A stretch of 41,518 bases of DNA. Origin: a bacterium. Its GTDB lineage: Bacteria > Zhuqueibacterota > Zhuqueibacteria > Zhuqueibacterales > Geothermadaptataceae. Shown here piece by piece: positions 7,970-40,096 of the stretch (positions are counted from its first letter, which is position 1; each line of letters starts with the position of its first letter). The translations under genes and the position numbers were made by a program. The stretch is from positions 1 through 41,518 of the forward strand of contig JAJRYV010000012.1 in the NCBI GenBank assembly GCA_024275575.1, in the 5' to 3' direction. The notes under the pieces were generated by a model that searched no databases, had not been told where the DNA came from, and was given only the letters and a program-made list of their open reading frames with translations.

Positions 7970-10900
7970 TGCACAACCACCATTTTTTTCCATGAGGTAT
8001 ATTCACCTGAGCGCAGTGTGACGAGATAGACACCGCTACCGACCTGTTGGCCGGATTTCGTATAACCATTCCAATAATAAGTATTGTGCCCGGCGAGATA
8101 AGGCCCCTCTTCGATGACGGTTATCAGCGTGCCGGAAAGGTCGTATAAATCGAGCCGTACATTACGATTCGAACTCAATTCAAAATTAATTCCGAAGCGC
8201 GACTCCCGGCCGGAGCGAAAAATATTGCGTTCCAGAACCATGGCATTACGCGCTTTCACCGTCAAACTGGCGGAGACGCGTTTTAGATTGTTGAGAAAAT
8301 CCACGGTCACCAGCTCAAAGCGGATAACCTCCTCTTTGGCTTCGGTGAACAGGCGGATGTTGCGGAAAAGCGGTACCACATCGACCCATTCACCCGTCTG
8401 CAATGTCGTTGCCGCGATAAAATCATCGGCAAAGGAATCATCGACGATATTATCATCGGTGTAAACGCGTAAATCCCAGGATTTGAGTTCGATTGAAGTC
8501 CGTACAGAAACCCGAACGCTATCACCGACGAGTACGGTTTGCGGTGAGACGGCTATTTCAGGCTGTGGAATTTCTTTGACACTATAAATCACTACCGTAT
8601 CGCTATTATCAGCCAGTTTTGTTTTATCTTCATTGGCTGCCCGGACTTCTGATTTGTGGGTGAAAGTCCGTAACGCGTTGTTCGTTGCCGCAGGCACTGT
8701 CATCGAAAAGTGGATCAGACGGCTGCTATGCGGTTCGATCGCTTCAAAAAACCAGGCCGATGGATCGCCGGTGGAGAGAGGTTGCGGCGAATAGGAAGCG
8801 GCGACCGGTACAGCGCCCTGAGGTAAAAACTCGCTCAGGTAAACGCTATCCGCAAAAGTATCACTGTTGTTGGAAATTTTGACCGCGTATTGGTAGGTTG
8901 AATTTTCCTCGGCAAACCAGATCGTGTCATTATCGGCATAGTTGAACGAAGAGCCTCGGACAAAATTTTGTACGGTTAGATCACTATTTTTTACAGCACC
9001 ATCGACGGCGTAGACCGTCGACAGGCTGATGTTGTTCGCACTCACCGTATCTTTTTCGGCAAAGATTTCAGCGCGGTTCTGCAGTGCAAACGGTGTCTGT
9101 ACTACATCGGCGGCGATCCGCGCAAAAAAGATGATATTTTCACTTTCACCGGCGCGCAGCGATGAGAGATTCCAGCTCAGTTCAGAGAGTGTTGCGTGAT
9201 CGGTCTGTTTGCTCACCTGAAAATATGAAACGTTTTCCGGCAGGGAATTGACGATGCGGATATTGCGTGCCGTGCCCGGGCCGAAGTTATCAACTTTGAG
9301 TTTGTAGCGATAAACCGAACCCGGTCGTGCTGCCGGTTCTTCGCGTCCGTCGATGAAAATCGTCGTATCGGTTAATATTTCGGTATCGATAGCGAGATCA
9401 TAATTCCACAGTTCTTCCGGCGGGACCGTGATATACGCCACCGTATCACGGGCCGTGTTGTTCCAGGTGACGGTATCGACCGGTGAAAGAATTTCAGCCC
9501 GGCTGACCAATGTTTCAACACTTTCAGGGATGTTCAGCGCCACCTTGACAGCGACCTCGATCGATTTACTGCCGCCGGCCGGCAGATCGCCGAAATGCCA
9601 GTCATTTTCGCTGGCGCCGGCAAGGCCGCTTTCGGCGAAAACGACAATTGGAGGCAGGCTGTGTTTAACGATGATGTTTTCCGCATCGCCGGGGCCGTTG
9701 TTGGTGACGCCGAGGGTGTAGGTATAAACTTCTTGCGGGATGACAGCGTTGCGACCGGCGATCATCGAGTCGGTTGTCGAGGTAAGTGTGAGCGCCAGGT
9801 CACTGTTTTCTTTGAAGATCACCGCATAAATCGTTTCTTCTGCAGAATTATTTTCCGGTTCTTCATCCTGGATCATTTGCAGCTCGGCTTTGTGCGGCAA
9901 AGGAAATGATCCCGCCGGCATCTTGTCGGCAAGCCGGGCGGTAAAATTGATGATCAGCGAATCCCAAGCCTGAATCACCGGCAAATTCCAGGTCAATTCG
10001 CCGGCAGCTTCTGTCGATGGCTGGGTTGAAATCGAAGTTATTTTTACCGAATCAGGAATCCAGTTGTGCAAAACAGCGCCAGTGATTTCCTGATTGCCGC
10101 GGTTATAAATTTTAAGGCTGTAGGCATAGGTCTCGTTCTGCGAAACCCGACCGAATTCGAAACCGCCTGCGGAGATTTTTCCGGGGGTCACTATGGGCAT
10201 CGTCAGCGCGCCGTCGTAGCGTGGGTAGGTGCCGAGAAATTTTACGATGGCGGTCGCGTGGTTATTTTCAGAAGCTGTGTCATTGACCGAGAAAATATCC
10301 ACCGAACTCACCAGCTCTTGCGTGCTTGGGGGCATGTCGTTGCGAACGCGAACGGTGACGTTATAAATGCGCACGTCACCGGGCTGCATTTCTGCGATCG
10401 TCCATTGCAGCGTTCCGGTGTCTTGTGTTTCGGGGGGGATAGCTGCCGTGATAAAATCTGTTCCCACCGGCAGTGCATGGCTCACCCGTACATTGGTAGA
10501 AACATTGGGGCCGTTGTTAAAAACGACAATTGAATAACTGATCAGACTGTCGGCATATGCTGCATTAAATATTTCGCCGGCAACATGCACGGTGTCGCTG
10601 GTGGCTGAGGTCAGCTTAACAGAAAGATCGGTGCCGCCCGGCCCGGGAACAAAATAGCGGCCTGTGCCACGGCCGATACGGTTTTTATCGGTGATGTTGA
10701 TATTTAACAAACGAATGGAATTGTTGTAAACAGGGTCGGGAGTGCTGTAATTCAGAACATAATAGTTTTTAATCACCTCGGAAAGCCGCGCATAGATGGC
10801 TGCCATTTCGGCGGCAGATCCCGATTGTAAATATTCACCGCCGGTTTCGGTCGCCAGCATTTGCAGGGTATCGGCACGAATTTCCGCCCCGAGACCGATC

Positions 10901-16712: not shown

Positions 16713-18514
<1,802 letters not shown>

Positions 18515-18515
<1 letters not shown>

Positions 18516-26109: not shown

Positions 26110-27462
26110 ATGAGAGTACGTCCATTTATTCCAATAATAATCTTGTCTTTTAGCATATTAATCGGTTGCACCGGATCACGCACAACCGTAGAACGGGCTG
26201 CGCCCCGATTATTATATAAATCTTTTGTCGCTCATGAAAAAGAGTCTCAATCCGCTACGAGAACCAGCAAAATTAAACAACCGGAAATTTTACAATTAAA
26301 AGACGCCCTCGCCCTGGCATTGCATTACAATCCGCAATTAGCCGTTTTTTCGCTGGAAATCCGCGCTCGTGAGGCCTGGGCCTTGCAGCAATCTTTTCTG
26401 CCGAATCCTGAATTAAATGTGGAAGTGGAAAATTTTGGCGGCAGCAGTAATTATGGCGCTTTCCGTTCCACTGAAACGACTCTGTCCCTGGGACAGTTAA
26501 TCGAACTCGGCGGCAAGCGACAAAAGCGAACACGAATCGCCGCACTGGAAAGCGATATGGCCGCATGGGATTATGAAGCCGTACGGTTAGACGTCTTTAC
26601 CGAGGTGGTGAAAAGTTTCACCGAAGTTCTCGCTGCGCAGGAACGGGTGCGAATGGATGAGGAACTGCTCGCCCTGGCTGAAAAATTTGTCGCTACGATC
26701 ACCAAACGTGTCGAAGCGGGCAAAATATCCACGGCGGAAGCGGCGCGGGCCAAGGTCGAACTGTCGGTTGCCGGCATCGAACTGGAAAGAGCGCGCCGTG
26801 AATTAACCGCCGCCCGCCAGAGATTGGCCGCAGCCTGGGGCGGCATCAAAGCTGAATTTCTTCAGGCTGAAGGAAAACTGGATATAGCGCTTTCTTTTCC
26901 TGCGCTGGAAAAACTACAGGCGCTGATCAATGATAATCCCGACCTGGCGCGCTGGGTGGTGGAAATGGAGCGTCGGCAGGCTGTGCGGGAACTGGAAAAA
27001 GCCAATGTCATTCCCGATCCCATCGTTAGCGGCGCCTACCGCCGTCTCAATGAAAGCGGCGATAATGCTTTTGTCATCGGTTTATCCATTCCCCTGCAGT
27101 TGTTTAATCGCAATCAGGGCGCCGTTCAGGAAGCGGAATACCGCGTCAAACAATCAGAAAAACAGCGCCAGGTGGTGGAAACACAGGTGAAATCCCGACT
27201 TGCCATCTATTATCAACTGCTTTCGGCGCTGCATAATGAGGCGAGTACGCTAAAGGACAAAATCATTCCCGACGCCCGCACGGCTTATGAGGTGATCAAC
27301 CGCGGATACCTCCTGGGGAAATTCACCTCTCTCGACGTCCTTGACGCCCAGCGAACATTATTCGAAACACGCGGCCGGTATTTGCGGACGATAACTGATC
27401 TCCATCACACAACAGCGGATATCGAAAGGCTGGTAGGACGCAGCCTGGCGGATGTAAAATAA
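26110..27462 (+). CDS. Outer-membrane channel (TolC/CzcC family), module 1
   Basis: A 450-aa outer-membrane factor with lipoprotein signal (lipobox LIGC, residue 20) and two internal OEP repeats. The periplasmic alpha-barrel has long heptad-rich helices (SLGQLIELGGKRQKR, LALAEKFVATITKRVEAGK, and later FNRNQGAVQEAEYRVKQ and TSLDVLDAQRTLF, the usual family phrases). It forms the exit duct for the adaptor and pump downstream. It starts about 130 bp after the small exported gene with no obvious terminator between, so it is likely transcribed from the repressor promoter. Confidence 0.9.
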   Translation: MRVRPFIPIIILSFSILIGCTGSRTTVERAAPRLLYKSFVAHEKESQSATRTSKIKQPEILQLKDALALALHYNPQLAVFSLEIRAREAWALQQSFLPNPELNVEVENFGGSSNYGAFRSTETTLSLGQLIELGGKRQKRTRIAALESDMAAWDYEAVRLDVFTEVVKSFTEVLAAQERVRMDEELLALAEKFVATITKRVEAGKISTAEAARAKVELSVAGIELERARRELTAARQRLAAAWGGIKAEFLQAEGKLDIALSFPALEKLQALINDNPDLARWVVEMERRQAVRELEKANVIPDPIVSGAYRRLNESGDNAFVIGLSIPLQLFNRNQGAVQEAEYRVKQSEKQRQVVETQVKSRLAIYYQLLSALHNEASTLKDKIIPDARTAYEVINRGYLLGKFTSLDVLDAQRTLFETRGRYLRTITDLHHTTADIERLVGRSLADVK

Positions 27463-27510: not shown

Positions 27511-28518
27511 ATGAAGACCATGACGAAAATTATTTCTTCAAACATTTTATCGGTTTTATTACTGGTATTCGTTTTCATATTGATACAGGGTTGTGGCAGC
27601 CGGCCCGAAGAAAAACAAAACAAAAAAATGGAAGTTGCTGAAAAAGAAGAACACGACGGGCATGAGGAAGAAGAGCGCGGTGGACACGAGGAAGAAGAAA
27701 TTGTGCAGCTCAGCGCCGATGAACTGGCTGAATTCGGCATCGAATTAGCCACGGCAGGCCCGGGAAATTTACAGGTGCATACTGACCTGACTGGCGAAAT
27801 CGTCATCGATCCCGATCGACTGGCCCACATCATTCCGCGTTTTCCCGGTATCGTCAAGGAAGTGCGCAAGAAAATTGGTGATAGAGTCAAAAAAGGCGAG
27901 GTACTGGCTATTATTGAAAGCAATGAAAGTTTAGTCCCATATAAAGTCAAATCCCTGATCAGCGGCACGGTTATCGAAATGCACCTGACTCTCGGCGAGG
28001 TGATAAGCGATGCCGCGCATGCTTTTATCGTCGCGGATTTAAGCCATGTATGGGCTAATTTGAATGTTTACCAAAAGGACTTGCAGTTTATCAAAATCGG
28101 CCAAAAAGCCGTTGTCACCGCCGGTTCGGAAATGCCTGAAGTGCAAGGGAAAATATCATACATCAGCCCGGTCGTTGAAGAAGATACGCGCACCGCAACT
28201 GCACGGGTCGTGCTGCCCAATTCTGACGGCCATTGGCGCCCGGGTTTGTTTGTTAGCGCCGCGGTTGTAAAGCAGGAATCCCAGGTCGATGTTTTGGTGC
28301 CGAAAACCGCGCTGGAGACTTTTGAAAATCGCACGGTGGTTTTCGTTAAAACAGCAAAAGGTTTCGTTCCCAAGCCGGTTTCCATCGGCCACAAAAATAC
28401 GCGCTCCGTAGAGATTATCGCCGGACTTCAGGTCGGCCAGGAATATGTATCAAAAGGCGGATTTACCATCAAAACCGAATTGCAGAAAGAAGCTTTCGGT
28501 GGCGGTCACGGGCATTGA
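27511..28518 (+). CDS. Periplasmic adaptor (CzcB type) without alpha-hairpin, module 1
   Basis: A 335-aa lipoprotein (lipobox IQGC) linking pump and channel. After the lipobox comes an acidic His-rich stretch (EEHDGHEEEE, then GGHEEEE). The barrel-sandwich part reads RFPGIVKEVRKKIGDRVKKGEVLAIIES then KSLISGTVIEMHLTLGEV (shown in pieces), with only a few residues between its two halves where most adaptors have a long alpha-helical hairpin. The C-terminus is GGGHGH. The His/Glu tracts at both ends could bind metal in the periplasm. The missing hairpin sets it apart from the 398-aa adaptor of module 2. Confidence 0.88.
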   Translation: MKTMTKIISSNILSVLLLVFVFILIQGCGSRPEEKQNKKMEVAEKEEHDGHEEEERGGHEEEEIVQLSADELAEFGIELATAGPGNLQVHTDLTGEIVIDPDRLAHIIPRFPGIVKEVRKKIGDRVKKGEVLAIIESNESLVPYKVKSLISGTVIEMHLTLGEVISDAAHAFIVADLSHVWANLNVYQKDLQFIKIGQKAVVTAGSEMPEVQGKISYISPVVEEDTRTATARVVLPNSDGHWRPGLFVSAAVVKQESQVDVLVPKTALETFENRTVVFVKTAKGFVPKPVSIGHKNTRSVEIIAGLQVGQEYVSKGGFTIKTELQKEAFGGGHGH

Positions 28519-28551: not shown

Positions 28552-31500
28552 ATGCAGAAAATAATTCAATTTGTTCTGAGAAACAAATTACTGATGCTCG
28601 TATTAGGCGTGCTGGTTCTCGCCGGGGGCTGGTTCAGCTACAGGCAACTGCCCATCGACGCCTTTCCCGACGTATCGCCTTCGCTGGTGCAGGTTTTTAC
28701 CGAAACCGAGGGCCTGGCCCCGGAAGAAATTGAAAAATACGTCACCTTTCCGGTGGAAGTAGCGATGAACGGCCTGCCCAACCTGGAGAAAATTCGTTCG
28801 GTTTCCAATTTTGGTCTGTCGGTCGTCAACATCTATTTTAAAGACGGCACCGATATTTATTTTGCCCGCCAGTTGGTCAACGAACGCCTGCAGGAAGCGC
28901 GCGAGCAAATCCCCGATGGTTTCGGCGAACCCTCGATGGGGCCCATTTCAACCGGCATGGGACTCATTTTGTTTTACTATCTGGATGATACAACCGGCAA
29001 CTATTCCCTGACTGAACTGCGCACCATTCAGGACTGGCTGATCAAATACCAGTTGCAGACCGTTCCTGGCGTCACCGAGGTGCTGGGCATCGGTGGCTGG
29101 GAAAAACAGTTTCAGGTCGTCATCGATCCCAGCGCTTTATTGCGCTATGATATCACCATCAATGAAGTCATCGAAAGAATAAAAGCCAACAACCTGAACG
29201 TGGGCGCCCAGTTTATCGAAAAAAATGCCGAAGAGTTCATCGTGCGCTCGGTGGGGCTGGCCAAAGACATCGAAGATATCGAAAGCATTGTCATCATGGC
29301 CGAGGACGGCGTGCCCATTTTTTTAAAGCAATTGGCCGATGTTGAAATCGGCGGCTCTATTCGTCGCGGTGTGCAAACGATGGATGGCGAACACGAGGTG
29401 ATCTCCGGCATGGTTGTCAAACTGTACGGCAGCAATTCTTCGACGGTGATCGGCCATGTGGAAGAAAAAATGAAAGAGATCAACAGCATTCTGCCACCGG
29501 GAATAAAAATTATCCCCTATTATCAGCAAAAAACGCTGGTGGAATCCAGCGTAAAAACGGTGACCGACGCGCTGCTGCAGGGCATTATTCTGGTCACCCT
29601 TGTTTTGCTGGTATTTATGGGCTCTTTTCGCCCCAGCCTGGTGGTGGCGATTTCCATCCCTTTTTCTATCCTGTTTGCCATGGTCGGTATGCAGTATTTC
29701 GGCATTTCGGTTAACCTGATGTCCTTTGGCGGCCTGGCCATTGCCATCGGCATGATGGTGGACGGCACCATCGTGATGGTGGAAAATGTCGATCGTATGT
29801 TGCGCTTGTCAAAACCCGGCGAACCGCGCATCCATGTTGTGGCCCGCGCCTGTCTCGAGGTTGCGCGGCCGATCCTGTTCGCTATTTCCATTATTATCGT
29901 GGTTTTCCTGCCCCTGTTCACTCTGCAGGGGGTGGAAGGCAAAACATTTAGTCCGCTGGCTTTTACGGTTTCCCTGGCCATGTTGGGCTCGCTGATTTTT
30001 GCCCTCTTTTTGGCTCCGGTATTATCCAATATGATTATGCGTCGCCCAAAAGTAAAAAAGGAAAACACCGGGCATGATGACGGTTTTTTAGTCGGTTTAT
30101 TATTGAAACTGTATGAACCACTCATTTTGTTTTTTGTAAAATTTCGTCAGGCGGCTGTGGCGCTGGCCGTCATCCTGATTGTGATCGGCGCCTTGATTTT
30201 TCCCCGCCTGGGTTCCGAATTTACACCCACCCTACAGGAAGGCACGATTGTTCTGCGGCTGACCATGGCACCTTCCATTTCTCTCAATGAGAGCACGCGC
30301 ATAACGCAAATCGTCGAACGGCGGTTGGTTAAAATTCCGGAAGTGACCGGCGCGGTAACCCGCATCGGCCGCGGCGAGGTCGGCGCACACACCGATCCCG
30401 TCAACAGCGCTGAAATGTATATTTTGCTCAAACCAAAGGAAGAATGGCGAACGGCCAAAACACAGCAAGACCTTGAAAAAGTCATCCGCGACGAGGTCGG
30501 CAATATTCCCGGCGTATTGGCCAATTTCACCCAGCCGATTCAGATGACTGTCGATGAACTTTTGGAAGGCGTGCGCGCCGAATTGGCGATAAAATTGTTC
30601 GGTGACGACCTGCAAGTGTTAAAAGAAAAAGCGGATGAGATCGTGCGCGTTATCAACCAGGTGCCCGGCGCCGCCGACGTGCAGGCTGACCAGATAAGCG
30701 GAACGCCGCAGTTACTCATAAAAGTGAACCGCCATGCCATCGCCCGCTACGGCGTCAATGTTGAAGAAGTGCAGCAGGTCATCCGCGCTGCTGTGGGCGG
30801 TGAAATCGCCGGTCAGATTTTTGAAGGCGTACGCCGCTTCGATATTCTCGTGCGTTATCAGGCGGAATTCCGCAATTCGATGGAAGCGATCAGCGAGATT
30901 TTAATCAATGCGCCCGGCGGCATCAAAGTTCCTCTGTCGCAACTGGCAAGCATCGAAGAGGTGGTCGGGCCGCGCCAGATAACCCGCGAAAACAGCCAGC
31001 GCTTCATCACCATCCAGAGCAATGTCATGGGCCGCGACATCGGTTCATTCGTTGCGGAGGGCCAGCAAGCGATCGCTGAAAACGTCGATCTGCCGCCCGG
31101 CTATCTGGTCACCTGGGGCGGCCAGTTCCGCCTGCAACAGGAAGCCAATAAGCGATTGGCCGTGGTCGTTCCGGTGACGCTGCTGATTATCTTTTTACTG
31201 CTTTTTTCCAGTTTCAATTCGTTGAAGAATACATTTCTGATCCTGTTAAATATCCCTCTGGCTTTGGTCGGCGGCGTGGTGGGGCTGTGGCTGACCGGAC
31301 AGAATCTCTCAGTGCCTTCTTCGGTGGGATTTATCGCTTTGTTCGGCATCGCCCTGGAAAACGGTATGGTGCTGGTGACCTATTTAAACCAGTTGCTCAA
31401 AGACGGCGTGCCCATCGATAAAGCCTCGGTTAAAGGCGCTATGCTGCGTCTGCGTCCGGTATTGATGACCGCCCTGACCACGGCGCTGGGACTCATCCCG

Positions 31501-31659
31501 CTGCTCTTTTCCGACGGCACCGGCAGTGAAGTGCAGCGGCCTTTGGCAACTGTCGTGGTCGGCGGCTTGATCACCTCAACGGTTTTAACCCTGCTGGTCA
31601 TCCCGGCCATTTATAAGTGGTTTGCCATTGATTTGAGTGTGGAGAGACAACTTGATTAA
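28552..31659 (+). CDS. HME-RND heavy-metal efflux pump (CzcA/CusA type), module 1
   Basis: A 1035-aa proton-driven inner-membrane pump with 12 membrane helices and two large periplasmic loops. The start LPIDAFPDVSPSLVQVFTE and the typical RND helix-4 region near residue 400 (LAIAIGMMVDGTIVMVEN) are diagnostic of the heavy-metal (HME) branch. The first Asp of the CzcA motif (DFGxxxDG) is Ala-Ile here, as in CusA-like members, while the second Asp and the Glu-Asn are kept. Metal specificity is therefore not readable from this motif. It lies 33 bp after the adaptor gene. The following PII-like gene is the usual companion of such pumps. Confidence 0.93.
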   Translation: MQKIIQFVLRNKLLMLVLGVLVLAGGWFSYRQLPIDAFPDVSPSLVQVFTETEGLAPEEIEKYVTFPVEVAMNGLPNLEKIRSVSNFGLSVVNIYFKDGTDIYFARQLVNERLQEAREQIPDGFGEPSMGPISTGMGLILFYYLDDTTGNYSLTELRTIQDWLIKYQLQTVPGVTEVLGIGGWEKQFQVVIDPSALLRYDITINEVIERIKANNLNVGAQFIEKNAEEFIVRSVGLAKDIEDIESIVIMAEDGVPIFLKQLADVEIGGSIRRGVQTMDGEHEVISGMVVKLYGSNSSTVIGHVEEKMKEINSILPPGIKIIPYYQQKTLVESSVKTVTDALLQGIILVTLVLLVFMGSFRPSLVVAISIPFSILFAMVGMQYFGISVNLMSFGGLAIAIGMMVDGTIVMVENVDRMLRLSKPGEPRIHVVARACLEVARPILFAISIIIVVFLPLFTLQGVEGKTFSPLAFTVSLAMLGSLIFALFLAPVLSNMIMRRPKVKKENTGHDDGFLVGLLLKLYEPLILFFVKFRQAAVALAVILIVIGALIFPRLGSEFTPTLQEGTIVLRLTMAPSISLNESTRITQIVERRLVKIPEVTGAVTRIGRGEVGAHTDPVNSAEMYILLKPKEEWRTAKTQQDLEKVIRDEVGNIPGVLANFTQPIQMTVDELLEGVRAELAIKLFGDDLQVLKEKADEIVRVINQVPGAADVQADQISGTPQLLIKVNRHAIARYGVNVEEVQQVIRAAVGGEIAGQIFEGVRRFDILVRYQAEFRNSMEAISEILINAPGGIKVPLSQLASIEEVVGPRQITRENSQRFITIQSNVMGRDIGSFVAEGQQAIAENVDLPPGYLVTWGGQFRLQQEANKRLAVVVPVTLLIIFLLLFSSFNSLKNTFLILLNIPLALVGGVVGLWLTGQNLSVPSSVGFIALFGIALENGMVLVTYLNQLLKDGVPIDKASVKGAMLRLRPVLMTALTTALGLIPLLFSDGTGSEVQRPLATVVVGGLITSTVLTLLVIPAIYKWFAIDLSVERQLD

Positions 31660-31723
31660 AGTGGAATCCAAATTGCTCAATTTGGGAGGAAGTGTATTTT
31701 AAGTAAAAAGTGGAGGAAATACC

Positions 31724-32065
31724 ATGAAACATATCATCGCTTATATCAAACCGCATAAGCTGAACAATGTGACTATGGCCTTGCATGAAATTGACGGCCT
31801 CAGCGGCATGACTATTCTCGAAGTGCGCGGCTGCGGCCGTGGAACGTGCGGCGATGAACCGCATTCTATCGAAGAAGACCTGTACGATTTTGTCAAACAC
31901 ATCAAACTCGAGGTGTTTTGTCTGGATAAATTAGTGGAAGACGTCGTTGCCGCTATCCAGACTCAAGCGCATACGGGTTTAAAAGGCGACGGCAAAATCT
32001 ATATCACCGATGCGTTTGACGCCGTGCGCATCAGCAGCGGCGAACGCGGCGAGGCTGCGGTTTAA
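31724..32065 (+). CDS. PII-like protein of the metal-efflux type (PII-NG), module 1
   Basis: A 113-aa trimeric-PII-fold protein: MKHIIAYIKPHKLNNVTMAL, then VRGCGRGTCGDEP in the T-loop region, KLEVFCLDKLVEDVV, and the B-loop TGLKGDGKIYITD (given in parts). PII-fold proteins bind nucleotides and control transporters by inserting the T-loop. A group called PII-NG is known to be encoded beside heavy-metal RND pumps. The T-loop region here contains two cysteines (GCGRGTC) not found in classic GlnB, which could sense metal or redox. GTGGAGGAA ribosome site 64 bp after the pump gene. Confidence 0.88.
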   Translation: MKHIIAYIKPHKLNNVTMALHEIDGLSGMTILEVRGCGRGTCGDEPHSIEEDLYDFVKHIKLEVFCLDKLVEDVVAAIQTQAHTGLKGDGKIYITDAFDAVRISSGERGEAAV

Positions 32066-32128
32066 CGCTTGCAGGGCCTGCTTTATTTATAAACAATCTT
32101 TTTAGGTTCGAATTGCCAATTCCGAGAT

Positions 32129-32225
32129 AAACATTCCTCCCCCCTTCAAAGGGGGGATTTGCAAAATCTCCCTTTGAAGGGAGACAGATTTGTGCTCGTT
32201 AAGAGCACAAATCAGAGGGATGTTT
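32129..32225. mobile_element. MITE-like 97-bp element of three hairpins with terminal inverted repeats
   Basis: Outer ends AAACATTCCTC (32129-32139) and GAGGGATGTTT (32215-32225) are inverted repeats with one mismatch. Inside are three perfect hairpins: CCCCCCTT/AAGGGGGG (32139-32156, 2-base loop), TCTCCCTT/AAGGGAGA (32167-32184, 2-base loop) and ATTTGTGCTC/GAGCACAAAT (32188-32212, 5-base loop). It has no coding capacity. This layout fits a non-autonomous palindromic repeat or MITE. It follows the PII gene and might also end its transcript. Confidence 0.65.
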
Positions 32226-32345
32226 CGCACCCGGAAGCAGTGTTTTCTCTCGTTTATGAATTATACAGGAGGGTGGGTTCGGACGCTTGTCGAAGGATGA
32301 GTTCGTGCGCAATTTAGAAATCTGGTTCTATTTACTGACTTGATA

Positions 32346-32525
32346 ACCGGGGGCCAAGAACATCGTCGCTGAGGCCAACACACGCTCAGCCCCTTGCGAA
32401 GATTACCAGCAATTATGCTTGTGAGATGTACTTTGGGGTATTGTATCCTCTCAATTTCACCTCAACTTCGCAAGGGTGAAGTTACCTTTCAGCCGGGTTT
32501 CTAATCTGGTAATTCCCGGCTGAAA
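32346..32525 (+). repeat. Structured intergenic repeat, copy A
   Basis: ACCGG-GGCC then TCGCTGAG-GCCAACACA-CGCTCAGC aligns with copy B (32935). It carries a long-range 11-bp pairing, CCCTTGCGAAG (32391-32401) with CTTCGCAAGGG (32466-32476). A further perfect 11-bp hairpin, TTTCAGCCGGG/CCCGGCTGAAA (32487-32525), is just upstream of the next gene. It resembles a folded RNA leader. I could not match it to a known riboswitch. Confidence 0.5.
32487..32525 (+). other. Leader hairpin before the 113-aa gene
   Basis: A perfect 11-bp stem with a 17-base loop ends 34 bp upstream of the ATG at 32560. No T-run follows, so it is not a typical terminator. It could be a processing or regulatory structure, or the 3' border of repeat copy A. 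Confidence 0.4.
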
Positions 32526-32559
32526 ATATCATGACGGAATCAATATAAGGGATTTAAAA

Positions 32560-32901
32560 ATGAACTTTTCCCGAAAAACAAAGCAGGGGCTAATTTTTTT
32601 GTTTTATTGTGGTTTTATCGCGGCATTTTTTCATTCGGCATATAATACCCTGTATCAATTTGAAGTGAACCATTCTCAGCATGATCTGAGAATTCTTTTA
32701 GCAAAGGCTGATAAAATTGATAATAATGACACTGATGATACCAACAGATTCCTCACAAACAATTCAGCCGCCTGTTCTGTTTTTGAAAAACCGAACCCGA
32801 CTTGCCTTATCAACTCTGATTACACTACTTTCTCAATTTCTTTAAATAGATTTCTGATCAACACCTCGCTCATAACTTTGTTCCAGTCTTTTCTCATTTG
32901 A
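32560..32901 (+). CDS. Small exported or membrane protein, unknown function
   Basis: A 113-aa reading frame after a weak AAGGGA site, with a hydrophobic N-terminus (LIFLFYCGFIAAFFHSAY) and a second half containing AACSVFEKPNPTC and a hydrophobic end. It occupies the same place before module 2 that the 140-aa protein occupies before module 1, and both are exported and contain Cys/His. No sequence similarity between them is evident by eye. It is AT-richer than its neighbours and framed by two copies of a repeat, so transfer or a spurious frame are alternatives. Not recognised. Confidence 0.4.
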   Translation: MNFSRKTKQGLIFLFYCGFIAAFFHSAYNTLYQFEVNHSQHDLRILLAKADKIDNNDTDDTNRFLTNNSAACSVFEKPNPTCLINSDYTTFSISLNRFLINTSLITLFQSFLI

Positions 32902-32934
32902 TTCGCTCTGTTATGCTGAACCAGCCCTGAAAAC

Positions 32935-33042
32935 ACCGGTTTATAGGCCGAAAGCGTCCTCGCTGAGGCCAGACACGCTCGGCGGGACGCTTGCTGCTCT
33001 ATGTTTTTTGGGGACTTGCAACTTTTCGGCCGAGTTCCCGGA
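32935..33042 (+). repeat. Structured intergenic repeat, copy B
   Basis: ACCGGTTTATAGGCCGAAA then a hairpin GCGTCC-T-CGCTGAG (32954-32967) with CTCGGCG-GGACGC (32978-32990), loop GCCAGACACG. GGCCGAAA (32946-32953) pairs with TTTCGGCC (33024-33031), closing the whole. It shares segments in order with copy A, including TTTGGGG and the TTTCxGCCGxGTT end. It lies 120 bp upstream of the module 2 channel gene. Confidence 0.55.
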
Positions 33043-33163
33043 TTTTTGTCAGGCGCTAAATACCGCATTCCTTTTGTCAATCGATGGCAGATAAATACAA
33101 TTTTAACCCATTTTTTAGAAAGTCCAATTTCGGAAAAATGAAAAAGCATGAGGAGCATGTGAA

Positions 33164-34396
33164 ATGAAAAATATTTTTCTGATATTTCTCGTTTTGATTT
33201 TACCTGTTTCCAGCGGCTTCGCACAACAGGTGAAGCCACTCTCGCTGCAAGATGCGAAAAATCTTGCCTTGCAAGAAAACCCGTTATTGCAAATTCAACA
33301 CAAGAGAATAGAAGCGCAAAAGGGGATTTACTGGGCGGAGATGACCCCTGAAAACCCGGAGCTCGGAATTGAAAATGAGCAAATTCATCCGAACGCACCT
33401 TTCACGCGTTATGGTGAGAGCAGGTTGTATATGTCACAGTCCCTTGATTTCCCCACCACTTACTATTTCCGCCACAAAGTGCTCAATGCGGAAATACAGC
33501 AGCGGCGATTTGGCCTTGAAAGATTCAAACGTGAATTAATTTTCATGGTGAAAAAGGCTTATTTTACCGTTTTGCTGCGAAATGAGCTGGTCAAGCTGGC
33601 GCAAAAAAATCTGGACTTATCGCAGGATTTTTACGAACGCGCCAAACGCAGCTACGAATTGGGCGAAAGCGACCGCCTGACTTTTTTAAAAGCAAAAGTC
33701 AATCTCGGCGAAGCCCGGCGGCAATTAAACGGCAAACAAAAAGACGTCGACGCTGCGCTTTCCCGCTTGCGCCAGGTGCTTGGCCTGCGGGACGACGACC
33801 GTTTAAAAATCGTGCTGACCGATTCAATCCCCGAAACCATCGAGGAATTTTCTTATGCAAAACTCAAACCCAAACTGGCGACTCATCCGGCGCTGCTCGC
33901 GGCGCAGACAGGACGGCAAGCGGCGCTCAATGCCAGACGTCTGGCCTATTCCGGCTTTTTACCGCAGATATCGATGACTTATTATAAACAGGAAATTGAG
34001 ATGGATAATTTTTGGGGCGGCGGCGTCGGCCTGTCTTTTCCCCTGTGGTTTTTCGGGCAAAAAGGCCGCGTTCAGCAGAGAAATGCGCAACTGTCGATGG
34101 CGGATCATTTTTTATCCGCCGAAGGCCTGCGCCTGCAAAAGGATTTTGATCTGGCCGCCGCCAATTTCCAAAAAGCGGTCAATGAAGTACGTCTGTACCA
34201 AACCAGCCTGTTGGGGGAAGCGGAAGAGGTTTTTCGTATTGCCCGGCAAAGTTATGCTGTCGGTGAGATCGGTTACCTGCAATTTATCGACGCCCAGCAG
34301 ACGCTGATTTATACGCGGCAAGGTTACCTGATTTCACTCAATAATTATCAAATCGAAAAAGCGCACTTAATCAAACTGGTGGGAGAAGAATTATGA
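33164..34396 (+). CDS. Outer-membrane channel (TolC/CzcC family), module 2
   Basis: A 410-aa outer-membrane factor with a cleavable signal peptide (ending SSGFAQQ, not a lipobox, unlike module 1). Two OEP repeats with long helices follow: NPELGIENEQI, RAKRSYELGESDRLTFLKAKVNLGEARR (reported in part), FWGGGVGLSFPLWFFGQKG, and GEIGYLQFIDAQQTL. It is the exit duct for the following adaptor and pump. The stop overlaps the adaptor ATG as ATGA. It differs clearly from the module 1 channel, so the modules are not a recent duplication. Confidence 0.9.
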   Translation: MKNIFLIFLVLILPVSSGFAQQVKPLSLQDAKNLALQENPLLQIQHKRIEAQKGIYWAEMTPENPELGIENEQIHPNAPFTRYGESRLYMSQSLDFPTTYYFRHKVLNAEIQQRRFGLERFKRELIFMVKKAYFTVLLRNELVKLAQKNLDLSQDFYERAKRSYELGESDRLTFLKAKVNLGEARRQLNGKQKDVDAALSRLRQVLGLRDDDRLKIVLTDSIPETIEEFSYAKLKPKLATHPALLAAQTGRQAALNARRLAYSGFLPQISMTYYKQEIEMDNFWGGGVGLSFPLWFFGQKGRVQQRNAQLSMADHFLSAEGLRLQKDFDLAAANFQKAVNEVRLYQTSLLGEAEEVFRIARQSYAVGEIGYLQFIDAQQTLIYTRQGYLISLNNYQIEKAHLIKLVGEEL

Positions 34397-35589
34397 AATT
34401 AAAAACTTTTATTATCGCAAAAATGAGTTTGCCCGTGCTGTTTCTTTTCACATTACTCCTGGCCGGCTGCACGGGAAATGAGGATAAACAAATCGAAACA
34501 GAAACCGCCGCAGAAGAACATCATGCTGAAATCGTTATTTCGCCGGAGATCATCGAAGAGGTCGGCATCGAAGTGGGCAAACCTCTGCACACGCTGTTGC
34601 GGCAGCATTTCACCGCCCAGGGCAAAGTGGTGGTCAATCCCGATTATGTCGCCCATTTAAACAGCCTGGTCACCGGCCGGGTGCGCAAAATTTATGTGCA
34701 GATCGGTGATTATGTTAAAAAAGGCGATGCGCTTTTCGAAATGGAAAGCCTGGAAATTGCCAATATCACCGCCGATTATATCCGCGCCAAAGCGGATTTC
34801 CGGGCGGAAAAAGCGAATTATGAACGCATTAAGAAACTGCGCAAGGAAGATATTAAAGCTGAAAAGGATTTGATTTCCGCCAAGGCCAGCTATCAACGGG
34901 CCGAGGCCGAACTCAAAGCCGCCGCCGACCGCAAGTTGCATTCGTTGGGTTTTAGCGAAGAAGACGTGGAAAGCATGTTCAGCGGCAAGGAACACCGCCG
35001 CGGCGTGCTGGTGGTAAAAAGCCCCATCAACGGTTACGTGACCGAGCGCAACATCGAACTCGGCCAGATGATTCAACCCGACACCGACATCATGAAAGTG
35101 ATCGACAACAGCCGTATCTGGGTTGAAGCCGCGGTTTATGAGAAAGATTACCTCAACCTGAAGATGGATCAGGCTGTCAGCATTGCAGCCACCGCTATGC
35201 CCGGAAGGAGGTTTAGCGGCACAGTTATCAAAATCAATAAAGAGCTGAACCCGAGGGCGCGCACTTTTAAGGTGTTTATCGAAATTAAAAAAGGCAAGAC
35301 CGAGCTGATACCGAATATGTTCACCACGGTCTATTTCCAATACGGCGCCCCGGATTCCATTCTCGCCGTGCCCGAAGAAGCTGTGCAGTTTGACGGCACG
35401 GATTATTTTATCTTTGTTGAAGACAAAGCGAATAGCTTTGTCCGCCGGAATGTCGTTATCGGTGAAGGCAGTGACAGCCTGGTGCTGATTAAAAGCGGGC
35501 TGACAGCCGAGGAAAATGTGGTGTTGCGCAAGGCCTTTTTTGTCAAATCGGAAATGGAAAAAGAATCGTTTGGCGGCGACCATCATTAA
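34393..35589 (+). CDS. Periplasmic adaptor (CzcB/CusB type) with alpha-hairpin, module 2
   Basis: A 398-aa lipoprotein adaptor (lipobox LAGC). A short His/Glu segment (AEEHHAE) follows the lipobox. The barrel-sandwich halves (VTGRVRKIYVQIGDYVKKGD; VVKSPINGYVTERNIELGQM) are separated by about 100 residues of charged helix (ADYIRAKADFRAEKANYERI and onward), the alpha-hairpin that contacts the channel. The C-terminus ends FGGDHH. It overlaps the channel gene by 4 bp and precedes the pump by 12 bp, so all three are coupled. Confidence 0.92.
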   Translation: MKLKTFIIAKMSLPVLFLFTLLLAGCTGNEDKQIETETAAEEHHAEIVISPEIIEEVGIEVGKPLHTLLRQHFTAQGKVVVNPDYVAHLNSLVTGRVRKIYVQIGDYVKKGDALFEMESLEIANITADYIRAKADFRAEKANYERIKKLRKEDIKAEKDLISAKASYQRAEAELKAAADRKLHSLGFSEEDVESMFSGKEHRRGVLVVKSPINGYVTERNIELGQMIQPDTDIMKVIDNSRIWVEAAVYEKDYLNLKMDQAVSIAATAMPGRRFSGTVIKINKELNPRARTFKVFIEIKKGKTELIPNMFTTVYFQYGAPDSILAVPEEAVQFDGTDYFIFVEDKANSFVRRNVVIGEGSDSLVLIKSGLTAEENVVLRKAFFVKSEMEKESFGGDHH

Positions 35590-35601
35590 GGAGAATTAAT
35601 C

Positions 35602-38600
35602 ATGATCAACAAAATCATCGAATTCGCCGCCCGCCAACGGTTGTTGGTTTTAATCTTCACCATCCTGCTTGTTGCGGCCGGCATTATCTCGTTAAATAAG
35701 CTGCCTATCGACGCTTTCCCGGATGTATCCCCGGTGCTGGTGCAGGTCTTTACCGAAGCCGAGGGCCTGGCGCCGGAAGAAGTGGAAAAGCTTATCACCT
35801 ACCCCATTGAAGTGGCGATGAACGGCTTGCCGGACATCCGCGAAGTGAAGTCGATTTCAACCTTTGGTCTTTCCGTAGTGTCGGTTTATTTTGCCGACAA
35901 TGTCGATATTTACTTTGCCCGGCAACTCGTGTTCGAGAGGCTGCAATCGGCCAAGGGCGATATCCCCGAAGGTTTGGGCAACCCGGAATTGGGGCCGATT
36001 ACTTCGGGGCTGGGACAGGTGTACCAGTATTATTTGCAGGGAGAAGGTTATTCTCTGATGGAATTGCGGGAAATTCAGGACTGGATTGTCAAATTCCAGT
36101 TGCGTACCGTGCCCGGCGTCACCGAGATACTCAGTTTCGGCGGCGAGGTGAAGCAGTATCAAATTCAGCTCGACCCGGTTTTGCTGCAAAAATACGATAT
36201 TACGCTTGATGAAGTCCTTGAGGTGGTCAAGTCCAACAACCGCAACGTCGGCGGAAATTTTATCGTGCGCCATTCCGAAGAATATCTCGTGCGCGGCCTG
36301 GGCTGGGTTTCAACCCTGAAAGATATCGAAAATATTAAAGTCGTGCGCCGCAGTGAAATACCGGTTTATATCCGCGATATTGCCGTGGTGGCTTTTGGTC
36401 CGGAAATCCGCCGCGGTCTGGTATCGATGAACAACAAGGGTGAAATCGTCTCGGGTATCGTTTTAAAATTATTAGGCGAGAACACCTCGGAAGTCATTGA
36501 AAATGTGAAAAAGAAGGTGGCGCAGATTAATGCAGGTCTGCCCAAAGGCGTTAAAGTGGTTCCTTATTACGATCAGGCCGATCTCGTTAAAAAAGCCACC
36601 GGCACGGTCAAAGACGCCCTGTTAGAAGGCGGCATACTGGTTGTAATAATTTTACTGTTATTCCTGGGTAACCTGCGCAGCGCTTTTATTGTCACCATCA
36701 CCCTGCCGCTTTCGGCGCTGACCGCTTTTATCCTGATGAATTACATGGGCATGTCCGCCAACCTGATGTCCCTGGGCGGTCTGGCCATTGGCATCGGCAT
36801 GATGGTGGACGGCTCCATCGTCATGGTTGAAAATATTATCCGCCATTTATCCGGGGGAAATCACAACCAGGGGAAAGCGGTTCCGGTTATTTTGCAGGCG
36901 GCGCGGGAAGTCGGCCGGCCTATCGTTTTCGCCATTTCCATCATCATCATCGTGTTTTTGCCCCTTTTCACTTTGCAGGAAGTGGAGGGCAAGCTGTTCA
37001 GCCCGATGGCTTTTACCATCAGTTTTGCCATGTTGGGCTCTTTAATTTTTTCACTGACGTTGGTGCCGGTATTGTGCACCTATTTTTTTAAAAATGGAAT
37101 TAAAGAAAAAACCAATGTCATCGTCGGTTTTCTGCAGGCGCTTTATGTTCCGCTTCTGGAAAAAGTTATCAGCCGGAAAAAGATCGTTACAGCGGCAGCG
37201 GTTCTTTTGCTCATCGCCAGTTTGGGGCTGGTGCCGTTTCTCGGTACCGAATTCGTACCCATACTGGACGAGGGCACGCTGGCGGTGCGCATCACGCTTT
37301 CGCCGAGTACTTCGCTGCAACAGGCCGCCGAAATCTCGCAGTCCCTGGAACCGCGTCTCATGGAATTCCCGGAAGTGATCGATGTGATTTCTCGGGTCGG
37401 CAGGGCCGAGGTGGGCGGCGATCCGGAGCCCATCAACAACTCGGAGATTTACGTTATTCTGCGGCCGGAAGAGGAGTGGACGGTGAAAAACAAAGCGGAA
37501 CTCGTCGATAAAATGCGGCAAAAGTTGAGCGACTTTCCGGGCATTTTATCCAATTTTACCCAGCTCATCCAGATGCGGGTTGACGAACTTCTCAGCGGCG
37601 TCAAGGCGCAATTGGCGATCAAACTCTTTGGCGATGACCTTGCTGTTCTGGCGCAAAAAGGGGCGGAAATTCAGGCCGTGGTCTCGGGCATAGCCGGCGC
37701 AACGGATATTCAGTTAGAGCAGATTGCCGGCAAACCGCAGGTGCAAATAAAGGTCGACCGCGACCGCATCGCCCGCTTAGGCATGAATGTGGATGAAGTG
37801 CAGGAAATTATCGAAACGGCGATCGGCGGTTCGGCTGTCGGGCAGGTATTTCAGGGGCAGAAACGCTTTGATATTTTCGTGCGCTACGGTGAATCTTTCA
37901 GAAATGATGTTGAAAAGATCAGAAATATACTGGTCTCCACGCCGGACAGTGTGCGTATTCCGCTCATTCAGGTCGCGGATATCAGCCTGGTCGTCGGCCC
38001 GAAGCAGATCAGCCGCGACAATAGCCAGCGCCGTATTTCCATCCAGTGCAACGTCGAAGGCCGCGATATGGGCGGGTTTGTCGCCGAAGCGCAAAAACGG
38101 ATAACCGAAAAGGTTTCGCTGCCGCCCGGCTATTTCATCACTTTCGGTGGCCAGTTCGAAAATCAGCAGCGCGCCATGGCGCGGCTGGGGCTCATCGTTC
38201 CCCTGACCATCCTGCTTATTTTTATCATGCTGTTTTCAACATTTAATTCGGTGCGCAACGCTTTTCTTATTATTATGAATGTGCCCTTCGCCCTGATCGG
38301 CGGTATTCTGGCCTTGTTCCTGTCCGGCCAGTATCTCAGCGTACCCGCTTCGGTGGGTTTTATCGCCCTGTTTGGCGTCGCGGTTTTGAACGGCGTGGTC
38401 ATGGTTTCCTATTTCAACCAGTTGCGGGATGAAGGGCTGGATTTGCACGACGCTGTGGTAACCGGCTCAAAATTGCGTCTACGCCCGGTGTTGATGACCG
38501 CGCTGGTGGCCAGTCTGGGACTGGTGCCGCTGCTGTTTTCCAGCGGCACGGGTTCGGAAGTGCAACGCCCGCTGGCAACCGTGGTCATCGGCGGGCTGGT

Positions 38601-38676
38601 TTCTTCCACTTTTCTGACATTGTTTGTGCTGCCGACGCTGTACGGCTGGTTCGAGAAAAAAAGAGTTGAGTTTTAA
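35602..38676 (+). CDS. HME-RND heavy-metal efflux pump (CzcA/CusA type), module 2
   Basis: A 1024-aa 12-helix proton-driven exporter. It begins with LPIDAFPDVSPVLVQVFTEA, and the helix-4 motif is LAIGIGMMVDGSIVMVEN, again without the first Asp of CzcA. By eye, the N-terminal 150 residues are roughly 55-60% identical to the module 1 pump, so the two are related but not recent copies. TGSEVQRPLATVV near the end is conserved in both. AAGGAG ribosome site. The PII-like gene follows 18 bp downstream. Confidence 0.93.
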   Translation: MINKIIEFAARQRLLVLIFTILLVAAGIISLNKLPIDAFPDVSPVLVQVFTEAEGLAPEEVEKLITYPIEVAMNGLPDIREVKSISTFGLSVVSVYFADNVDIYFARQLVFERLQSAKGDIPEGLGNPELGPITSGLGQVYQYYLQGEGYSLMELREIQDWIVKFQLRTVPGVTEILSFGGEVKQYQIQLDPVLLQKYDITLDEVLEVVKSNNRNVGGNFIVRHSEEYLVRGLGWVSTLKDIENIKVVRRSEIPVYIRDIAVVAFGPEIRRGLVSMNNKGEIVSGIVLKLLGENTSEVIENVKKKVAQINAGLPKGVKVVPYYDQADLVKKATGTVKDALLEGGILVVIILLLFLGNLRSAFIVTITLPLSALTAFILMNYMGMSANLMSLGGLAIGIGMMVDGSIVMVENIIRHLSGGNHNQGKAVPVILQAAREVGRPIVFAISIIIIVFLPLFTLQEVEGKLFSPMAFTISFAMLGSLIFSLTLVPVLCTYFFKNGIKEKTNVIVGFLQALYVPLLEKVISRKKIVTAAAVLLLIASLGLVPFLGTEFVPILDEGTLAVRITLSPSTSLQQAAEISQSLEPRLMEFPEVIDVISRVGRAEVGGDPEPINNSEIYVILRPEEEWTVKNKAELVDKMRQKLSDFPGILSNFTQLIQMRVDELLSGVKAQLAIKLFGDDLAVLAQKGAEIQAVVSGIAGATDIQLEQIAGKPQVQIKVDRDRIARLGMNVDEVQEIIETAIGGSAVGQVFQGQKRFDIFVRYGESFRNDVEKIRNILVSTPDSVRIPLIQVADISLVVGPKQISRDNSQRRISIQCNVEGRDMGGFVAEAQKRITEKVSLPPGYFITFGGQFENQQRAMARLGLIVPLTILLIFIMLFSTFNSVRNAFLIIMNVPFALIGGILALFLSGQYLSVPASVGFIALFGVAVLNGVVMVSYFNQLRDEGLDLHDAVVTGSKLRLRPVLMTALVASLGLVPLLFSSGTGSEVQRPLATVVIGGLVSSTFLTLFVLPTLYGWFEKKRVEF

Positions 38677-38694
38677 TAAAAAGGAGTCATTATT

Positions 38695-39033
38695 ATGCAG
38701 GAAATAAAAGCCTAGATCCAACCGTTTATGTTGAATAAAGTCGAGACCGCTCTGAAAAAACTTCACATTCACGGCATGTCCGTCTGTGATGTGCGCGGAT
38801 TCGGGCGGGAAAAAGATGAGAGTTTTCCACATTATTATCAGGATTATGTGGTGGAATTTACACCGAAGATAAAAATCGAGATCGTTTGTCCCGATGTGGA
38901 GGTGGATAAAATCGTCGATTGTATTTACCAAAACGGGCGCACCGGACGCAAGGGGGACGGCAAAATATTTGTAACCGAGATTATCCGCGCCAAAAGCATC
39001 CGCACGGGCGATGAAGGAGAAAAGGCGATTTGA
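38695..39033 (+). pseudogene. PII-like gene of module 2, interrupted by TAG at codon 7
   Basis: From the ATG at 38695, which has a strong AAGGAG site at normal spacing, the frame reads MQEIKA-stop-IQPFMLNKVETALKKL. The intact module 1 homologue has MKHIIAYIKPHKLNNVTMAL, so the TAG (38713-38715) replaces Tyr7. The remainder is intact to 39033: VCDVRGFGRE, KIEIVCPDVEVDKIV, TGRKGDGKIFVTE. An internal ATG at 38728 would give 101 aa but lacks beta-strand 1 of the PII fold and has no ribosome site. Options: recent inactivation, readthrough, or reinitiation. Other genes here end with TAG, so TAG is a normal stop. Confidence 0.8.
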
Positions 39034-39054
39034 AGTCCGTTTAAACTCGCTCCC

Positions 39055-39080
39055 GGTTCCCAGGCTGGTGCCTGGGAACC
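39055..39080. repeat. REP-like palindrome
   Basis: GGTTCCCAGGC (39055-39065) and GCCTGGGAACC (39070-39080) are perfect 11-bp arms around TGGT. The GGTTCCCAGGC/GCCTGGGAACC hairpin is a common dispersed intergenic repeat type in bacteria. No T-run follows. It lies 22 bp after the PII frame. Confidence 0.6.
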
Positions 39081-39123
39081 AGCGTTAAATATCGAATCAC
39101 AGGTTGTTTTGGCCACGGAAATT

Positions 39124-39167
39124 CACGGATGAAACACTGATTTTGAAACATCCGTGTTTCATCTGTG
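39124..39167. repeat. Inverted repeat before the CDF gene
   Basis: CACGGATGAAACAC (39124-39137) and GTGTTTCATCTGTG (39154-39167) pair at 13 of 14 positions around a 16-base loop, ending 26 bp before the CDF start. It may be part of the dispersed CACGGATGAAACAC-type intergenic repeat class or a leader hairpin. Confidence 0.5.
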
Positions 39168-39193
39168 CTGATCGACGACAAAAAGGAAATTAT

Positions 39194-40096
39194 ATGTCAC
39201 ATAATCATGACCATTCACATGCTCCGGCAGGAAAAGATTTTAGCAAAGCTTTTGCAATCGGCGTTATCCTCAACCTGATCTATATTGTCGTCGAAGTTAC
39301 TTACGGTATTATTGTCAACTCGTTAGCGTTGATCGCCGACGCCGGGCACAATTTCAGCGATGTGCTTGGTTTGTTGTTAGCGTGGGGAGCCAGTTATCTC
39401 GTTAAAAAATCGGCGACGGAAACCCATACTTACGGCTATAAAAAATCGACCGTATTGGCCGCTTTTCTCAATGCGCTCATTCTCCTTGTTGCCGTTGGCG
39501 CGATTATCTGGGAAGCCATCGGCCGCTTTGCCGAACCGCAGGCCATTGAAGGGAAAACGATTATGATTGTTGCCGGAATAGGTGTTGTCATAAATACAGC
39601 AACAGCATTGCTCTTCTTCTCCGGCAGAAAAGACGACTTGAATATCAAGGGAGCGTTCCTGCACATGGCGGCTGATGCGGGCATTTCTTTGGGTGTTGTC
39701 TTGGTGGGACTGGCGCTGACATTTACCAATTTATATTGGCTGGACCCGGTTGTGAGTATCGTTATTGCGCTGATAATTTTCTGGAGCACCTGGGGGTTGC
39801 TAAAAGATTCGGTTAATTTGGCCCTGGATGCAGTGCCGGGAAATATCGATAAAAAAGGCGTGCAAGATTATTTGGATACGCTGCCGGAGATTGAAAGCTT
39901 TCACGATCTTCATATTTGGGCGCTGAGCACCACGGAAACGGCTTTAACCGTTCATGCCGTTATCAAAGAAAAATGCAACCGAAACAAGGCTATTGGAAAA
40001 ATCAGCACCGATTTACGGCATAAATTCAATATCGTTCATACCACGATTCAAATTGAAGATAAAGGTAGAGAAGATTGCCGTCAAAATCAAATTTAG
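39194..40096 (+). CDS. Cation diffusion facilitator (CzcD/ZitB type)
   Basis: A 300-aa inner-membrane metal/proton antiporter moving Zn, Cd or Co from cytoplasm to periplasm, where the RND pumps can take it over. His-rich start (MSHNHDHSH), six membrane helices, and transport sites in helix 2 (ADAGHNFSD, His52 with Asp56 and Asp49) and helix 5 (HMAADAGISLG, His and Asp). The cytoplasmic C-terminal domain has HDLHIWALS. ATG at 39194 is preferred over the longer frame from 39104 because AAAGGAA precedes it and the His-rich start is typical of the family. The longer form would read through the inverted repeat. Confidence 0.94.
   Translation: MSHNHDHSHAPAGKDFSKAFAIGVILNLIYIVVEVTYGIIVNSLALIADAGHNFSDVLGLLLAWGASYLVKKSATETHTYGYKKSTVLAAFLNALILLVAVGAIIWEAIGRFAEPQAIEGKTIMIVAGIGVVINTATALLFFSGRKDDLNIKGAFLHMAADAGISLGVVLVGLALTFTNLYWLDPVVSIVIALIIFWSTWGLLKDSVNLALDAVPGNIDKKGVQDYLDTLPEIESFHDLHIWALSTTETALTVHAVIKEKCNRNKAIGKISTDLRHKFNIVHTTIQIEDKGREDCRQNQI

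Follow-up and report, generated by a model that had tools for sequence, protein, structure and literature searches.

The analysed stretch, here called the window, is a contig of 41,518 nucleotides (C110; GenBank JAJRYV010000012.1) from a bacterium of the Geothermadaptataceae, whose 4.96-Mb genome (G000; GCA_024275575.1) is a 144-contig draft that is 97.7% complete. The window carries two tandem heavy-metal efflux modules, each of which is ordered outer membrane efflux protein (OEP), CusB-type membrane fusion protein, CusA-type pump and PII protein (Table 1). The PII gene that closes module 2, PII-2, is interrupted by an in-frame stop codon. It is followed by a cation diffusion facilitator gene that more likely starts at an ATG near 39194 than at the first base of the ORF as listed. 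Promoter and terminator scans of positions 31500-39400 returned matches at the level of shuffled sequence (10 versus 8.3 and 15 versus 12.0, respectively). A match to the Whalefall-1 RNA (RF01762) lies between PII-1 and module 2 at 32164-32224 (+), with 37.3 bits and a gathering score of 37. Elsewhere in the window, at 177-3131 (-), a TOTE-type primase/helicase gene (AEP-TOTE, ResIII/DEAD and Helicase_C) is a multiply broken pseudogene, split into four or more fragments that do not share a frame.

Table 1. Coordinates of the two efflux modules and of the features of the interrupted PII gene in the window
Feature	Position	Strand	Basis or remark
Outer membrane efflux protein, module 1	26110..27462	+	OEP
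CusB-type membrane fusion protein, module 1	27511..28518	+	HlyD_D23
CusA/CzcA-family RND pump, module 1, open	28552..31659	+	TIGR00914, 1129 bits
PII-1, first CusA-linked PII gene, open, Tyr at codon 7	31724..32065	+	ORF list, Pfam P-II, alignment
Outer membrane efflux protein, module 2	33164..34396	+	OEP
CusB-type membrane fusion protein, module 2	34393..35589	+	HlyD_D23
CusA/CzcA-family RND pump CusA2, module 2, open	35602..38676	+	TIGR00914, 1202.7 bits
AAGGAG ribosome-binding site of PII-2	38681..38686	+	8 nt upstream of ATG; direct reading
PII-2, second CusA-linked PII gene, interrupted	38695..39033	+	Frame reading, PII-1 search, Pfam P-II
In-frame TAG, codon 7 of PII-2	38713..38715	+	TAT/TAC in 13 of 13 orthologues
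Post-stop open frame of PII-2, 101 aa, without beta-1	38728..39033	+	ORF list, structure models
Cation diffusion facilitator 3' of PII-2	39104..40096 (ORF as listed)	+	Cation_efflux

Direct reading of the sequence bears out the in-frame TAG at codon 7 that the initial annotation had reported for the second PII-like gene. The frame begins with an ATG 18 nt after the end of CusA2, encodes MQEIKA, meets the TAG and continues with IQPFMLNKVE through 105 further codons to a terminal TGA at 39033, without a second stop; apart from codon 7, its 112 codons are open. The start signals are intact, and both the first six codons and those after the TAG fit a PII protein, as had been proposed. The Pfam P-II profile crosses the stop (83.3 bits, profile positions 1-101, one TAG inside), as does a search with PII-1 (E 2.1e-18, query positions 1-113, one TAG inside), and neither the profile nor the query contains PII-2. 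The 101-residue remainder alone scores 73 bits against Pfam P-II (PF00543; cut-off 25). PII-2 is not a complete PII ORF that includes the first beta strand, since this strand spans residues 2-8 of the read-through model and codon 7 is the TAG. The module 1 protein does have Tyr at this position, in agreement with the original reading.

All 50 matches that Foldseek listed for the read-through model in the PDB are PII proteins. PII-2 is equal in length to GlnB/GlnK, represented by E. coli P-II (PDB 1pil), with which its B-loop (TGxxGDGKIF), Tyr-51 and Lys-58 are aligned. Unlike GlnB/GlnK genes, PII-2 is linked to a pump and not to amt or glnA. Position 7 is Tyr in PII-2 orthologues and Ile in E. 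coli. The PII-2 clade keeps the B-loop, Lys-58 and Tyr-51, with the exception of locus L038, which has no Tyr at position 51, and differs from E. coli P-II in its T-loop, REKDES(F/Y)PH, with Glu in place of Gln at position 39. Gln-39 of E. coli P-II takes part in 2-oxoglutarate binding, so the Glu found here may mean that the response to 2-oxoglutarate has been lost in the clade.

In a midpoint-rooted phylogenetic tree of 48 PII sequences, built without a published PII-NG reference sequence, 35 rows (31 labelled CusA-linked and four not) separate from the other 13, which are Amt-linked or non-CusA. The split has support of 100/98 but draws a long-branch warning. PII-2 groups in this tree with the pump-linked PIIs, apart from the Amt-linked and other canonical PIIs, as a member of the PII-NG proteins (Sant'Anna et al., 2009, as cited in PMC7726332) might. 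Its likeness to PII-NG proteins is that its PII domain (PF00543) is encoded beside CusA/CzcABC-type pump genes. The PII-NG protein GSU2134 of Geobacter sulfurreducens is described in PMC7726332 as the product of the first gene of a czcABC operon that is upregulated under cobalt stress, and a metal-sensing role is proposed there. By analogy, the pump-linked PII of the window may have the same sort of role. The two arrangements differ in gene order, the pump coming first and the PII gene last here; the PII-2 copy in the window also differs from GSU2134 in being interrupted.

The initial annotation had called for codon 7 to be compared in relatives, and this comparison returned a sense Tyr codon in every PII-2 orthologue with a visible N-terminus (TAT in eight and TAC in five; TAG in none of the 13). 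These orthologues comprise 12 of the 13 loci from the collection search and L004 from a search of 60 related genomes; L043 was omitted from the count since its contig begins 3' of codon 7. The nearest orthologue (L032) belongs to a metagenome-assembled genome (MAG) titled Caldithrix abyssi HyVt-577 (G082), whose module is collinear with the window at 76% DNA identity over the stretch compared. Both this genome and G084 have the order OEP1-CusB1-CusA1-PII1-OEP2-CusB2-CusA2-PII2, in which OEP1 is incomplete because the stretch or contig ends there, and G083 and G086 show the same order to the extent of their contigs. PII-1 and PII-2 are free of stops in these genomes and in G085; they share one contig in G082, G083, G084 and G085, where in G085 they are similarly spaced, and lie on two contigs in G086. 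The position next to CusA is also seen in orthologues. The PII-2 clade (the window, L032-L042 and L044) spans MAGs titled Caldithrix, Calditrichota, Bacteroidetes, Chlorobiota, Omnitrophota and Eisenbacteria. No confirmed relative was found in viral contigs, and the 99 plasmid records that matched were all below 60% identity; the best 15 of these 99 comprise five named glnB, two named 'P-II family nitrogen regulator' and eight without a feature name.

The gap-free alignment of PII-2 with its HyVt-577 orthologue contains nine nonsynonymous and 65 synonymous differences over 111 codons (pN 0.034; pS 0.961, which is saturated), so PII-2 was under selection until recently. Any decay therefore set in late: the unconstrained time amounts to less than about 5% of the branch if dS is 1 and less than 10% if dS is 0.5, where these branch values are assumed and the bound is the point at which seven or fewer amino-acid changes have a probability below 5%. 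The low nonsynonymous divergence and the orthologous Tyr codons support the earlier suggestion of a very recent loss. When amino-acid changes are polarised with G084 and G083, six fall on the window lineage, none on the HyVt-577 lineage and one is ambiguous (p 0.03), compared with 157:181 for five neighbouring genes (Fisher p 0.011 against PII-2). Within the window lineage, however, the ratio of amino-acid to synonymous changes in PII-2 (6:12) equals that of the five neighbours (157:296), so the excess is no clear sign of decay, and relaxed constraint was ruled out as proof that the gene is dead. The part that is still open shares 93% identity with HyVt-577, so the coding sequence alone does not prove the death of PII-2 either.

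PII-2, the second gene in the tandem pair of pump-linked PIIs, has probably become a pseudogene only recently, by a nonsense change in what was a CusA-linked PII-type regulator. The main rival, next after recent nonsense loss and considerably less probable, is an artefact of sequencing, assembly or strain consensus, in which case codon 7 is a sense codon in the cells and PII-2 works as usual. The draft state of the genome favours such an error, as does the fact that PII-2 is otherwise intact and under purifying selection, and the frameshifted glnA-linked PII gene in this assembly may point to errors that remain in it. The error rate was gauged from rpoB of the phylum, using 81 rows from 72 of 82 genomes, or approximately 259 kb (57 near-full rows at 3,762 bases each). 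Two of these rows have an internal stop (G049 and G062) and at least three genes are split (G043, G048 and G049), so draft errors do exist. At the rpoB rate, however, a PII gene would be expected to contain only 0.0026 stops, and the 73 PII rows of the phylum 0.19 in total. Four such rows with a stop were seen, of which three are otherwise full-length (G000, G001 and G042) and one is a truncated gene (G047). The probability of at least three stops among the 73 rows is 0.001, which argues that the stop set as a whole is not artefactual, while the odds for any single gene are less sharp. The rpoB and rpoC genes of the window's genome are also without a stop, the window's pump genes are open, and 73% of 281.5 kb sampled from the genome (the window and twelve 20-kb samples) lies within mechanically called ORFs of at least 200 aa, all of which speaks against an artefact.

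Continued expression of PII-2, either by low readthrough of the TAG or by a restart at ATG 38728, is improbable. The initial annotation had left room for both routes, and they draw on the intact frame past the stop, on the purifying selection on PII-2 and on the next in-frame ATG being only 12 nt beyond the TAG. Readthrough is opposed by the tRNA content of the genome: ARAGORN assigned an anticodon to all 41 tRNA matches, none of which is CUA, so that the proposed check for an amber suppressor came back negative, and the one tRNA-Tyr has the anticodon GTA. Release factor RF1 is present (526.5 bits; cut-off 423.25). In the same 281.5-kb sample, TAG ends 20 of 147 non-overlapping mechanical ORFs of at least 200 aa, some of which are spurious, and these include window genes that are typical of their families, for example 5000-7993 and 17169-18515. 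TAG is therefore an ordinary stop in this genome, and its absence from codon 7 of the orthologues likewise tells against readthrough. As for the restart, ATG 38728 corresponds to the normal Met-12 codon of all 13 orthologues and no ribosome site precedes it. The restart product would begin downstream of beta-1 and gives a poor predicted model, with strands shorter or gone (pLDDT 68.3 and pTM 0.57, from 18 sequences, compared with a mean pLDDT of 84.3 and pTM of 0.71 for the read-through model, from 19 sequences). That TAG is recoded as an amino acid throughout this genome, for which only the open frame past the stop speaks, is very improbable given the TAG-terminated ORFs, RF1, the lack of a CUA anticodon and the lack of a TAG in the orthologues.

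On the preferred reading of a recent nonsense loss, a Tyr codon within strand beta-1 would have changed to TAG, and translation of PII-2 would now stop after six residues, with the CusA2 pump and the paralogous PII-1 of module 1 staying open. The TAG would then be present in the cells and not merely in the assembly. A normal PII-2 would be a nucleotide-binding trimer that tunes the pump or its operon to the state of the cell, and module 2 may now work without it or under PII-1.

A survey of the window's phylum found 73 PII rows in 82 genomes, which were classed by linkage (a CusA or Amt gene within 1.5 kb of the PII row) as 17 CusA-linked, 33 Amt-linked, six linked to a P-type ATPase and 17 other. 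When disruption is judged solely by whether a search row shows a stop or a partial match, four of 17 CusA-linked genes are disrupted compared with one of 33 Amt-linked genes (Fisher p 0.04, post hoc). The four are PII-2 itself and the genes of G001 (TAA at codon 35), G042 (TAG at codon 55) and G041 (a short gene). G001 belongs to the same genus as the window, and its gene (L045 7510-7848; G001:C16:43509-43847), which is flanked by CusA and a heavy-metal P-type ATPase, is the only PII found in that genome. In G042 (L046 1-1326; G042:C357), the relative L013 has Tyr at the position of the stop, and the CusA match is a 135-nt piece at the start of the contig, approximately 860 nt from the PII gene. 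Two small opposite-strand ORFs lie between that piece and the PII gene, one of which encodes a putative minimal nucleotidyltransferase. The G041 gene (L156 5477-5740; G041:C73) encodes 87 residues compared with 113 in its relatives, an in-frame internal deletion of 26 codons that takes out the B-loop.

Two more disrupted rows fall into the class of other linkages. One is a 5'-truncated PII-1 relic in G066 (L130 13390-13584; G066:C3:99389-99583), upstream of an open module 2; the stretches of that genome that were read contain no module 1 pump. The other is the glnA-linked PII of the window's own genome (L050 4646-4982, minus strand; G000:C81), which is frameshifted near its 5' end. The Pfam P-II profile finds three PII genes above cut-off in G000, two of which are broken, and only the broken copy in G001. 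No match above cut-off was found in seven of eight genomes of the sister family in the same order, or in G002, which is 67% complete.

The survey was extended to two other phyla at a threshold of E 1e-30, with at most 11 or 12 candidates scored per genome and, for the phylum of G083, a completeness of at least 80. No stops were found in 112 PII rows from 394 genomes of the phylum of G083 (a record titled Bacteroidetes bacterium, itself included), in which, among the loci classified, 17 (L200-L216) are shown to be CusA-linked and 12 more (L217-L228) are not, or in 66 PII rows from 384 genomes of the phylum of G091 (a record titled Omnitrophica bacterium). These settings mean that truncated or divergent PII copies are missed in the other phyla. 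At the common cut-off of 1e-30, stops occur in two of 15 rows of the window's phylum (G000 and G001) compared with none of 178 elsewhere, which would make the loss local to this phylum if the difference goes beyond small numbers; the G042 stop would escape detection at that cut-off. Recurrent loss of CusA-linked PII in the phylum is possible. The fuller proposal, that the phylum repeatedly discards the pump-linked PII as a removable brake while keeping the pumps, with Amt-linked PIIs mostly intact, is tentative and on balance rather unlikely.

As a single gene, PII-2 is an ordinary pseudogene candidate, and the recent loss of a regulator is an ordinary event. An ORF caller would report a 101-residue PII without its first strand, which calls for caution in annotation. 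No report of a broken pump-linked PII appeared among the best literature matches listed, and the role that PMC7726332 proposes for pump-linked PII proteins is based on linkage, expression and structural similarity. Only the possible recurrence has wider interest. If such losses do recur in this phylum while the pumps stay, then PII-less pump operons would occur naturally beside intact ones and would provide a test of PII function.
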